From Candidatus Gastranaerophilales bacterium (GTDB lineage: Bacteria; Cyanobacteriota; Vampirovibrionia; Gastranaerophilales; Gastranaerophilaceae), in contig CALVAM010000002.1 in the NCBI GenBank assembly GCA_944325545.1, positions 62,001 to 126,000 of the forward strand: a stretch of 64,000 nucleotides of DNA, read 5' to 3'. A model generated the notes under the pieces. The model saw nothing but the letters and a program-made list of their open reading frames with translations, did not search any database and was not told the DNA's origin. The translations under genes were made by a program, and so were the position numbers. Positions 1,359 to 42,116 of the stretch are shown here, in pieces. Position 1 is the stretch's first letter. Each line of letters begins with the position of its first letter.

Positions 1359-1393
1359 TTCACTATTCACTATTCACCAATCACTATTCACTA
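1359..1393. repeat. Heptamer tract (NTCACTA)5
   Basis: Five consecutive heptamers of the form NTCACTA (the reverse complement of TAGTGAN), one of them with a single change. The tract ends 1 bp before the accB stop codon. It belongs to the same family as the tracts in the large repeat islands near 13.9, 24.3 and 41-42 kb. Confidence 0.85.
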
Positions 1394-13677: not shown

Positions 13678-14193
13678 ATTTCCTTCCATTTATGAGAGAA
13701 GGTTAGGAAGGGTGATAATTCATAAGTGGAGATGTTTATAAGTTTAGGAGTTTTTAAGAAATTATGTTGAGGAGTTTAGAAGGAGTTTTAGTTTCCCCTC
13801 CCCTTGAGGGAGGGGGTTAGGGGGTGGGGTGGATTTAAAAGAGGAGAATTTAATAAGTTTAGGAATGTATAAGAAGTTAACAAAAATTCTATTCACTACT
13901 CACTATTCACTAAATATAAGCTTTTGGTGCAAAAAATTGCCCCCTACGTACTAATTTAAAATGCACTCCTCACTCTTAACGCCTCACGCTTCACTGCTGG
14001 AGCAAGCTCCATCCTACTATTCTAAATATAAGCTTTTGGTGCAAAAAATTGCACCCTACGGACTTACTACGTGTTTTTGGGGGATATTTCAATTTCATCC
14101 CCTCCCTCAAGGGGCGAGTATTGTATGGGAGGAAAAATTGAGGTGGAGCTAATAATAAAATTCTACTCACACCTCACACCTCACTCATCACTA
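13678..14193. repeat. Repeat island A (562-bp gene-free gap)
   Basis: The gap between pncC and the secreted protein at 14197 holds no convincing gene. From left to right it contains: G/A-rich sequence; a CCCTCC/GGAGGG palindromic block (about 13795-13825); a heptamer tract at 13889-13912; a GGTGCAA hairpin at 13926-13943 (one arm mutated); a degenerate heptamer stretch with GGAGC/GCTCC (about 13963-14010); a perfect GGTGCAA hairpin at 14038-14055; a second CCCTCC block (about 14098-14114); and a diverged heptamer tract at 14163-14193. Part of it (13849-13920) is the reverse complement of a segment of island B. Confidence 0.85.
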
Positions 14194-14196
14194 AAA

Positions 14197-14796
14197 TTAA
14201 TATGTCGTACGCTTTAGAATTATTTTTGATTTTTCGTTATACAAATTATGCTTGTACCAAACCCCTTCAAATTCTCCATCCGGTGTGAATAAATACTGAC
14301 AATCTTTTGATACAAAATAGATTGCACTCACAGGAGTTCCTGAGATTCTGTATTGGATAGAATAATAAGGATAGTCAGGATATTCACCATAGATAAAATC
14401 AACGTATTTTAAGTTTCCTAAAGCATCATAATAATAAGCTTTTGAAACATCTTTTTTATCCTGAAGAGCATACATATAAATATTTTTCATTCTTTTATAA
14501 TAAAAAGCCGAAATATTATAATCTCCGTATTCTTTATATCCTGCAGATGCTGCAAGATAATGTTCAATTCTTTCTTTATCTTTCAATTTATCTTTGAACT
14601 GAGATTTAAAATCTTCTTGTTTTACAACAGGGTTTTCAAATATTATATCTTTAACTTCATTAATTATGGCTTCTTTTTCAACAATTGATTTGTCTATCCA
14701 ATCATATTTTATATCTGCAATATAAATGTCATTATAATTAGCTGAAACAAAAGGACAAACTAGTAAAAATAAAATAGTAGATAAAATTTTTTTCAT
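14197..14796 (-). CDS. Exported hypothetical protein (199 aa)
   Basis: 199 aa with a Sec signal peptide (KKILSTILFLLVCPFVSA, cleavage near residue 19). The mature protein is Tyr/Asp/Lys-rich with no transmembrane helix. The C-terminal half (about 120-199) carries repeated Tyr-Tyr and Gly/Asp turns such as YYYDALGNLKYVDF and LFTPDGEFEGVWY, suggesting a beta-rich fold. No family is recognised. The start has GGAG 8 nt upstream. It is divergent from the DUF374 gene across 66 bp, and the stop codon abuts the last heptamer tract of island A. Confidence 0.7.
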   Translation of the reverse strand: MKKILSTILFLLVCPFVSANYNDIYIADIKYDWIDKSIVEKEAIINEVKDIIFENPVVKQEDFKSQFKDKLKDKERIEHYLAASAGYKEYGDYNISAFYYKRMKNIYMYALQDKKDVSKAYYYDALGNLKYVDFIYGEYPDYPYYSIQYRISGTPVSAIYFVSKDCQYLFTPDGEFEGVWYKHNLYNEKSKIILKRTTY

Positions 14797-24235: not shown

Positions 24236-24714
24236 TAGGAGGTGGAGTGAAAAAGTTTTGTTGGGTTCCACCCAACCTACTTACTAGTGAATAGTGATTA
24301 GTGAATAGTGAATAGTGAGTAGTGAATAGAAATTTATAAACTCTTTTTCAACTTCTCAACTTATAAACTTCTCATTAATTGTAGGGTGCAATTTTTTGCA
24401 CCAAAATCTTATATTTAGTGACTAGTGAATAGTGAGTAGTGAATAGTGAGTAGAATTTTTATTAACTTCTTATACATTCCTAAACTTATAAATATGTCAC
24501 CCTGAATTCATTTCAGGGTCTTATAAATTAGTTTGTAGGGTGCAATTTTTTGCACCTTGTAAATAATAAAACCCCACCCCGAAATCAGAGATTTCGACCC
24601 TCCCTCAAGGGTAGGGTAGTTAGTAGGGTGCAATTCTTTGCACCAAAAGTGGTAGGTTGGGTGAAGCCCAACAAAAACTTCTATTCACTACTCACTATTC
24701 ACTAATCACTAATT
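24236..24714. repeat. Repeat island B (593-bp gene-free gap)
   Basis: The gap between the peptidase-like gene and ftsY holds no gene. It contains: a GTTGGG/CCCAAC palindrome (about 24259-24278); heptamer tracts at 24285-24329, 24416-24453 and 24681-24711; GGTGCAA hairpins at 24385-24402, 24539-24556 and 24627-24644 (loops TTTT, TTTT, TTCT); a CCCTGAA/TTCAGGG hairpin at 24500-24518; a CCCTCC-type block near 24595-24612; and a second GTTGGG/CCCAAC palindrome near 24653-24672. About 75 bp around 24485-24557 is almost identical to 41115-41190 in island C. Confidence 0.9.
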
Positions 24715-25665: not shown

Positions 25666-25727
25666 GAGAAGTTTATAAAGAATTAATAATAAACTTCTCT
25701 TCACTACTCACTCTTCACTAATCACTA
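25666..25727. repeat. Inverted repeat plus heptamer tract between nusB and ftsY
   Basis: A perfect 11-bp inverted repeat (GAGAAGTTTAT at 25666-25676 with its complement at 25689-25699) runs directly into four NTCACTA-type heptamers (25700-25727), one of which ends in C. It lies 4 bp from the nusB stop codon. It may act as a weak terminator or an RNA-processing site between the two genes. Confidence 0.75.
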
Positions 25728-27702: not shown

Positions 27703-27967
27703 GTTGACCGGTAGAAAGAAAACAAACTCGGGAATGACATCAATGTCAGCTGACCATATAGTTCAAGGTCAAGTAAAAGCCAACTGGTAGAAGATACTGG
27801 AGAGGTTGACCGGTAGAAAGAAAACAAACTCGGAAATGACATCAATGTCAACCGACCATATAGTTCAAGGTCAAGTAAAAACCAACTGGTAGAAGATACT
27901 GGAGAGGTTGACCGGTAGAAAGAAAACAAACTCGGGAATGACATCAATGTCAACCGATTATATAGTT
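27703..27967. repeat. 102-bp direct tandem array, 2.6 copies
   Basis: Copies start at 27703, 27805 and 27907 (each GTTGACCGG). The first two differ at about four positions and the third is truncated near 27967. Each unit contains TGACAT-CA-ATGTCA, GACC/GGTC arms around 11 nt, and ACCA/TGGT, so the RNA of each unit could fold. The plus strand has stops in every frame within a unit. The minus strand is open only because 102 is a multiple of three. The array fills the 330-bp gap between deoB and the ferredoxin. Confidence 0.92.
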
Positions 27968-27989
27968 AAAAGAAAAAAAGGAGAAAAAA

Positions 27990-28166
27990 ATGAACGTAAC
28001 AATTAATGATTCTTGTGTAGGATGCGGTGCTTGCGAATCAATTTGCGAAGCAGTTTTTCATGTAGAAGATAAAGCAGAAGTTAATGCAGCTAATGTTGTC
28101 GGTAATGAAGAATGTGTAAAAGAAGCTGCTAATGCTTGTCCTGTATCCGCTATTGAAGTAGCTTAA
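27990..28166 (+). CDS. Small [4Fe-4S] ferredoxin (58 aa)
   Basis: A 58-aa electron carrier, MNVTINDSCVGCGACES at the N-terminus. Cys9, Cys12 and Cys15 form CxxCxxC, and C49-P50 (NACPVSAIEV) supplies the fourth ligand of one 4Fe-4S cluster. Cys19 and Cys41 sit at positions that form a disulfide or are relics of a second cluster in single-cluster ferredoxins. AAGGAGA lies 7 nt upstream. It suggests low-potential anaerobic metabolism. It is flanked by the tandem array and a strong terminator, so it is a one-gene transcript. Confidence 0.92.
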   Translation: MNVTINDSCVGCGACESICEAVFHVEDKAEVNAANVVGNEECVKEAANACPVSAIEVA

Positions 28167-41019: not shown

Positions 41020-41339
41020 TAGTGATTAGTGACTAGTGAGTAGTGACTAGTGAGTAGTGACTAGTGAGTAGTGAATAGTGAGTAGAAATTTATTATTAAC
41101 TTTTTCTAAACTTCTCAACTTATAAATACGTCACCCTGAATTCATTTCAGGGTCTTATAAATTAGTTTGTAGGGTGCAATTTTTTGCACCAAAATCTTAT
41201 ATTTAGTGAATAGTGATTAGTGAGTAGTGAATAGAAATTTATTATTAACTTTTTCTCAATTCCTCAACTTCTCAATAATTGTAGGGTGCAATTATTTGCA
41301 CCTAAATCTTATATTTAGTGATTAGTGAATAGTGAGTAG
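41020..41339. repeat. Repeat island C, left half (401-bp gene-free gap)
   Basis: Opens with nine perfect TAGTGAN heptamers (41020-41085), the longest tract in the window. A CCCTGAA/TTCAGGG hairpin (41134-41152), a GGTGCAA hairpin (41173-41190), a heptamer tract (41204-41234), a second GGTGCAA hairpin with an ATTA-like loop (41285-41302) and a third tract (41316-41339) follow. The connecting phrases (AAAATCTTATATT before tracts, CTTCTCAACTTATAAA after them) also recur. No gene is seen. Confidence 0.92.
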
Positions 41340-41385: not shown

Positions 41386-41595
41386 CTATTCAAAATCTGC
41401 TAATTTGTAAAATTCTATTTCTAATACATCTGCAAGTTCAAATAATTTTCTAAGACTCATATATTTTTGTCCTTTCTCTACCCTGCAAATATATTCTTTT
41501 GAGAAATCAAGTTTCTCTGCTAAAACTTCTTGAGTTAACATTTTAGCTTCTCTATATTTTTTTATATTTTGTCCTAATTTTTTTATTCTTGACAT
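41386..41595 (-). CDS. XRE-family transcriptional regulator (69 aa)
   Basis: A minimal Cro/cI-type helix-turn-helix protein. The HTH spans about residues 9-62 (LGQNIKKYREAKMLTQEVLAEKLDFSKEYICRVEKG in outline: TQEVLAEKLDFSKEYICRVE is helices 2-3). There is no extra sensor domain. It has a weak AGG 5 nt before the ATG. Two 15-bp direct repeats lie just upstream, next to a divergent 45-aa ORF, an autoregulated pair arrangement. The module sits between two halves of a repeat island. Confidence 0.88.
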   Translation of the reverse strand: MSRIKKLGQNIKKYREAKMLTQEVLAEKLDFSKEYICRVEKGQKYMSLRKLFELADVLEIEFYKLADFE

Positions 41596-41807: not shown

Positions 41808-41811
41808 GTAA

Positions 41812-42116
41812 GGTGCAAAAAATTGCACCCTACGTACTTAAAAAATACGTCACCCTGAATTCATTTCAGGGTCTTATAAATTAGAAAATAAAACTACAAG
41901 TGTGTAAGATTCCGAAATAAATTCGGAATGACAAAATAAATGATTAAAATGTAGTAGGTTGGGTGAAACTCAACAAAAACTTCTATTCACTATTCACTAA
42001 TCACTAAATATAAGATTTAGGTGCAAAAAATTGCACCCTACGTACTTATAAGTTGAGAAGTTTAGAAAAAGTTAATAATAAATTTCTATTCACTATTCAC
42101 TACTCACTATTCACTA
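41812..42116. repeat. Repeat island C, right half (364-bp gene-free gap)
   Basis: Holds a GGTGCAA hairpin (41812-41829), CCCTGAA/TTCAGGG (41853-41871), ATTCCGAA/TTCGGAAT (41909-41929), a GTTGGG-type palindrome with one altered arm (about 41957-41974), a heptamer tract (41983-42006), a GGTGCAA hairpin (42020-42037), the TTATAAGTTGAGAAGTTTAG phrase and a last heptamer tract (42086-42116). The first hairpin starts 5 bp after the stop of the 45-aa ORF. Confidence 0.9.

Follow-up and report, generated by a model that had tools for sequence, protein, structure and literature searches.

The window analysed here, a stretch of 64,000 nucleotides from a Candidatus Gastranaerophilales genome, has a complex of short tandem repeats in the gap between bicA and hom. 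Gastranaerophilales are non-photosynthetic relatives of cyanobacteria. The left outer arm of the complex is a TAGTGAN array on the plus strand (41020-41085), in which nine TAGTGA units with the seventh bases T, C, G, C, G, C, G, A, and G are closed by an extra TAG; the first-pass annotation had read these letters correctly. Two inner left arms follow on the same strand, one of four units (N = A, T, G, and A) plus TAG at 41204-41234 and the other of three units (N = T, A, and G) plus TAG at 41316-41339. On the right side the arrays are inverted. Three units on the minus strand (41983-42006) make up the inner right arm, and four units (42086-42116, minus strand), 55 bp ahead of hom, make up the right outer arm. 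The segment 41055-41131 is 96% complementary to 42040-42116 over 77 nt. Between the inner arms there is a short ORF on the minus strand (41400-41594), which by eye is helix-turn-helix-like.

Similar arrays are found elsewhere in the window. In the gap downstream of ftsY, the left arm has six units (24285-24330, plus strand) and the right arm is an inverted array of four units (24681-24711, minus strand), 29 nt behind the ftsY stop. The predicted fold of this gap pairs the two arms. Between them lies another plus-strand array of five units (24416-24453), which adjoins a GTAG-footed palindrome. The 73 bp gap between nusB and ftsY has a minus-strand array (25697-25727) 4 nt behind the nusB stop, with two units being GAGTGAG/GAGAAG variants. 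Another minus-strand array (1360-1393), including one TGGTGA unit, is located 1 nt behind the stop of accB, which encodes the biotin carboxyl carrier protein. Also on the minus strand are an array of three units adjoining a TGCAATTTTTTGCA palindrome (13889-13912) and a variant array, TAGTGAT GAGTGAG GTGTGAG GTGTGAG TAG (14164-14193), 3 nt behind the stop of the gene at 14197-14796.

Other repeats are also present. Dispersed palindromes (GTAGGGTGCAATTTTTTGCACC, GTAGGTTGGGTGAAGCCCAAC, GTCACCCTGAATTCATTTCAGGGTC, and a CCCTCCCTTGAGGGAGGG type) form a mosaic beside the arrays (24240-24680, 13880-14070, 41130-41310, and 41810-42050), several of them with a GTAG foot as in REP sequences. Arrays of 8-mers of the AACTTCTC / AAGTTNAN type, which have variable positions, often follow the TAGTGAN arrays (41090-41120, 24340-24375, and 13700-13880; also locus L178 of genome G012). 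Similar 8-mers are the arms of other S23 genes, the gene family described below. Between deoB (phosphopentomutase) and uppP, a 102 bp unit is found in three tandem copies (27703-28008).

The window includes about 12 TAGTGAN tracts on both strands, and TAGTGANTAGTGA has 35 matches against 0.01 expected from shuffles, in agreement with the earlier statement that many tracts occur in both orientations. Genome-wide, TAGTGANTAGTGANTAG has 138 matches and the reversed pattern has none. With these matches and with tracts in other genomes, the repeat is not limited to one locus. Since several contigs of this assembly (G000) end near arrays (C2:6-36, C8:141-464, C17:44-67, and C19:68-547), the true number of arrays is probably larger than the number counted. 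Pattern counts refer to the whole genome, and array statistics to a 415 kb sample of it (30% G+C), mostly around known tracts. Short tandem repeats in this sample most often have a period of 7, and almost every tract with this period is of the TAGTGAN family. Arrays with at least two perfect units are intergenic in 50 of 50 cases. The comparison with the heptanucleotide STRR of heterocystous cyanobacteria, made in the first-pass annotation, is a good one, and the genome falls within the cyanobacterial phylum. Both are tandem heptanucleotides between genes with many copies per genome. The unit sequence is different, however; TAGTGAN is not a known STRR unit, and the host is not a heterocystous cyanobacterium but a member of a non-filamentous sister lineage.

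Positions of the unit differ greatly in variability. In lag-7 tracts of the 415 kb sample, detected independently of the motif, neighbouring units differ at T in 10%, A in 12%, G in 2%, T in 1%, G in 7%, A in 2%, and N in 74% of cases. Decay is thus not equal at all seven positions, and the hexamer is not invariant, as had been proposed, with its positions differing in 1-12% of neighbouring units. Variant units (GAGTGA, TGGTGA, and GCGTGA) exist, and some are in the window (1360-1393, 14167-14193, and 25701-25727). Given their composition, the N letters along a tract are in an order indistinguishable from chance, and an avoidance of identical neighbours is not significant when letters are shuffled within tracts (P 0.27). 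The possibility that N forms compensating pairs in a stem is unsupported, with N matching between arms no more than by chance (P 0.97). Some predicted stems have a single mismatch every 7 nt. In a simple reading, N would be the position needed by neither the stem nor a putative bound protein.

Arrays are often arranged as convergent pairs. Opposite-strand neighbours are plus-then-minus in 19 cases and the other way in 3. In a relative, G007, every gap of the flagellar run flgI-flgJ-(89 aa)-flgH-(166 aa) has a convergent pair around an A-rich loop, and predicted folds of these ORF-less pairs have z from -5.7 to -10.9.

Between groES and groEL, such a pair encloses a gene. In G007 and G021, the order is groES, array, a 118-codon TIGR02436 ORF, inverted array, and groEL. 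TIGR02436 is the family of a four-helix-bundle protein for which the names S23p and 23S-rRNA intervening-sequence protein (IVP) are also in use. In the predicted fold of the full element (z -5.3) the arms are paired. Among 30 species, this site has the element in 19, an empty gap of 11-35 bp with no array in nine, and an ORF-less remnant (137 and 204 bp) in two. The 204 bp remnant (G068) has GAAAATT-type arms, like those of the S23 gene elsewhere in the same genome. While both empty and filled sites exist, target duplication is ambiguous at their A/T-rich ends.

TIGR02436 was found in 29 of the 58 genomes of the genus, and almost every copy lies between tandem arrays in inverted orientation. 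Depending on the species, the unit of these arrays is TAGTGAN, TCGTGAN, GTGAAGN, or one of several 8-mers. TAGTGAN tracts are commoner in genomes where the arms of the S23 gene itself are TAGTGAN (p 0.002), and the same holds for 8-mers (p 0.03); p-values for such associations, here and below, are optimistic because the genomes and species are related. In the genome of the window, the groES-groEL element with a broken ORF is the only S23/IVP gene detected. Its arms are GTGAAGN and the dispersed arrays are TAGTGAN, a mismatch of units that counts against the link. No S23 gene was detected in eight of the 26 tract-bearing genomes of the genus, including the richest one (G012, 443 hits); five of these eight genomes are less than 90% complete.

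Seven species have TAGTGAN arms at groES-groEL. The left arm has the N string A T C A in all seven, and the string of the right arm has a single change, against differences of up to 57% at third codon positions of the ORF between the arms. In these parent elements, N is therefore heterogeneous within an array but inherited. The description of the seventh base as free is right for variation within an array but not between species, where N is conserved in orthologous arms instead of mutating freely; with the variation at other positions, this leads us to reject the strict free-base model in part. The conservation of the arms could also be explained by a role in gene regulation or transcript stability, with TAGTGA arrays retained as DNA or RNA binding sites of a host protein. 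Their location near stop and start codons would suit such a role. However, 32 of the 58 genus genomes, complete ones included, have no arrays, the nusB-ftsY array is present only in the genome of the window and three close relatives (four of 30 species), and the flanking genes have no function in common. A regulatory origin is thus improbable.

Another explanation is plain replication slippage, by which intergenic 7-mers would arise by themselves, and S23 elements would only have inserted within or next to them. An idea quoted in the literature ties the heptamer period to the footprint of DNA polymerase (PMC4692102). Unit numbers downstream of ftsY differ by one between the close relatives G066 and G022, and tracts of many other phyla keep one and the same seventh base throughout, both as expected from slippage. 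But slippage does not explain the excess of convergent pairs, the association with S23 genes, or the matching of the two arms at one site where the unit differs between species. It is also at odds with groES-groEL gaps that are empty and have no array, and with the difference in N between most neighbouring units. We regard slippage alone as unlikely, marginally less so than regulation, and the earlier view that the unit has spread and that simple slippage is insufficient is right.

The GTAG-footed palindromes bring in a further candidate, REP elements moved by a Y1 (REP-associated) transposase, in which the palindromes and not the arrays would be the real element. Modules of GTAG plus palindrome exist beside several arrays in the window, and Y1 transposases exist in the genus. 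Their presence is not associated with arrays, however (16 of 26 genomes with arrays and 17 of 32 without), and groES-groEL elements have arrays but no GTAG-type palindromes. The REP/RAYT transposase was rejected as the driver, and this origin is very improbable.

The reading we prefer, with a probability of about 0.7, is that the arrays are arms of intergenic stem-loop elements of the IVS/S23p type and of their ORF-less derivatives. It brings together the observed anatomy, the association with the S23 gene, the empty and filled sites, and the predicted folding. A full element consists of a heptamer array, an S23/IVP (TIGR02436) ORF about 118 codons long, and an inverted array. It lies between the stop codon of one gene, which it follows closely, and the ribosome-binding site of the following gene, where insertion would be tolerated. 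In RNA, the two arrays of about 33 nt can pair, with mismatches often at the variable position, and leave the ORF in the loop. Most dispersed copies would be ORF-less derivatives with the same kind of arms, outnumbering their parents. The array at 41020-41085 would be one such arm, and the genome around it has a single detected S23/IVP gene, which is broken. The element may move, or may have moved, as a unit. Recognition of the repeats by a homopentameric S23 protein is proposed, so that a position not contacted could vary. RNase III may cut the element from transcripts, by analogy with IVSs in rRNA. The first-pass annotation called the tract a microsatellite, a term that misses the convergent pairs able to form a stem and the S23/IVP gene inside the parent elements.

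The association of S23 genes with arrays extends beyond the genus. We collected 131 TIGR02436 loci from the genus, other Cyanobacteriota, other phyla, plasmids, and viral contigs. Strong flank complementarity (score of at least 18) was found in 80 of them (61%) versus 19 of 843 control ORFs (2.3%; Fisher p 4e-63), a conservative contrast because the controls come from loci chosen for arrays, with control sizes unmatched to S23 ORFs. About 40% of S23 loci have no strong flank complementarity. The best tandem period is 7 in 87 of the 131 loci and 8 in 22, and the median arm is 33 nt. TIGR02436 is present, often in multiple copies, in 44 of 50 genomes of many phyla, nearly all chosen for a TAGTGAN tract alone, and in none of 14 control genomes. 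Across 386 genomes of the cyanobacterial phylum, it is found in 25 of 29 with tracts versus 121 of 357 without (p 3e-8). In other phyla, named loci spanning roughly 8 kb around the tracts had no S23 ORF. The link there therefore holds for whole genomes, and for the flanks of S23 genes located at other sites in them. A complete cyanobacterial genome (G199) has about a dozen S23 copies with common AGGTTTC-type left arms and additional nested arrays, the pattern expected of an amplified family. In another cyanobacterium (G099, locus L257), the S23 gene is flanked by TTAGTCA/TTGGTCA-type arrays, which are putative STRRs.

The closest known system is the IVS of 23S rRNA with S23p. It is reported that the 23S rRNA IVS of Coxiella burnetii is excised by RNase III and has GACAGAT/GACAGAA heptamers ahead of its S23p ORF (PMC4990558). 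Inverted arms with a stem of about 28 bp and an S23-family ORF in the loop, often decaying, are common to rRNA IVSs (PMC4990558) and the elements here, and the tandem GACAGAT units with GACAGAA, in which the last base is changed, resemble our arrays. Complementary ends able to form a stem are seen here in predicted folds, flank complementarity, and the pairs of the window; an S23p ORF lies inside the parent elements of relatives and is absent within the pairs of the window. The rRNA IVSs differ in being inside 23S rRNA (helix 25 or 45) and not between protein genes. Moreover, the arms here are mostly whole tandem arrays, and cutting by RNase III, known for rRNA IVSs, is putative.

Xanthomonas is another example. 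X. campestris has 186 degenerate GGGANTN tracts, mostly of four units and often in convergent pairs near the upstream ORF, and each Xanthomonas genome has 70-75 convergent plus/minus pairs (PMC4692102). Like TAGTGAN, the GGGANTN / GGGAATC repeats of Xanthomonas and GGGGA(T/C)T of Nostoc are degenerate intergenic heptamers (PMC4692102). In addition to its heptamer repeats, X. campestris has an S23-family protein, XCC0516 (2gsc), a solved S23 relative (E 4.5e-28) described as a toroidal homopentamer (PMC4990558). The Xanthomonas and Nostoc repeats were interpreted as G-quadruplexes and not linked to S23 (PMC4692102), while a G-quadruplex is impossible for the TAGTGAN unit. The TAACTGA repeats of Beggiatoaceae, cyanobacteria, and Bacteroidetes are likewise intergenic heptamers, patchy, of 2-6 units, and near gene ends; they differ in the unit and, in BOGUAY, in having a single orientation near start codons (PMC4679880). 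Gene regulation or transcript stability has been proposed for those of Beggiatoaceae (PMC4679880). MITEs, too, are short non-coding copies with inverted ends, dispersed in the genome alongside less common coding copies, but here there is no transposase of a known family and the arms are tandem arrays.

It is conceivable, at somewhat less than even odds, that all of these form one class across bacteria: TAGTGAN, cyanobacterial STRRs, Xanthomonas GGGANTN, and Beggiatoaceae TAACTGA would be the arms either of S23/IVP elements or of ORF-less copies descended from these. The S23 homopentamer would read or generate the 7-nt unit, and it would also maintain the element or move it. In the open-access papers searched, we found none that links the arrays to S23, none about TAGTGA arrays, and, apart from the Coxiella IVS, none on heptamers together with S23 proteins. 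S23/IVP proteins, rRNA IVSs, and heptanucleotide repeats are each without a settled function so far. An anatomy shared across phyla would supply a parent element for the repeats and a likely ligand, its own arms, for the protein, and would account for the repeats being patchy, convergent, intergenic, and lineage-specific in sequence. If the S23 link holds, several unexplained families of bacterial repeats would be tied to one kind of element.

S23 genes with such arms are also found in other contexts. On plasmid pANA02 of Anabaena sp. 90 (L297, 1489-1857), an S23 gene with 7-mer arms lies between cas6 and cas4 in a type I-D CRISPR locus. Passenger S23 genes of this kind could be mistaken for CRISPR-associated genes; the FLSHclust CRISPR paper names a 23S rRNA IVP domain only in a legend. 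S23/IVP genes with 7-mer arrays are present on contigs classed as viral as well (L411-L421).
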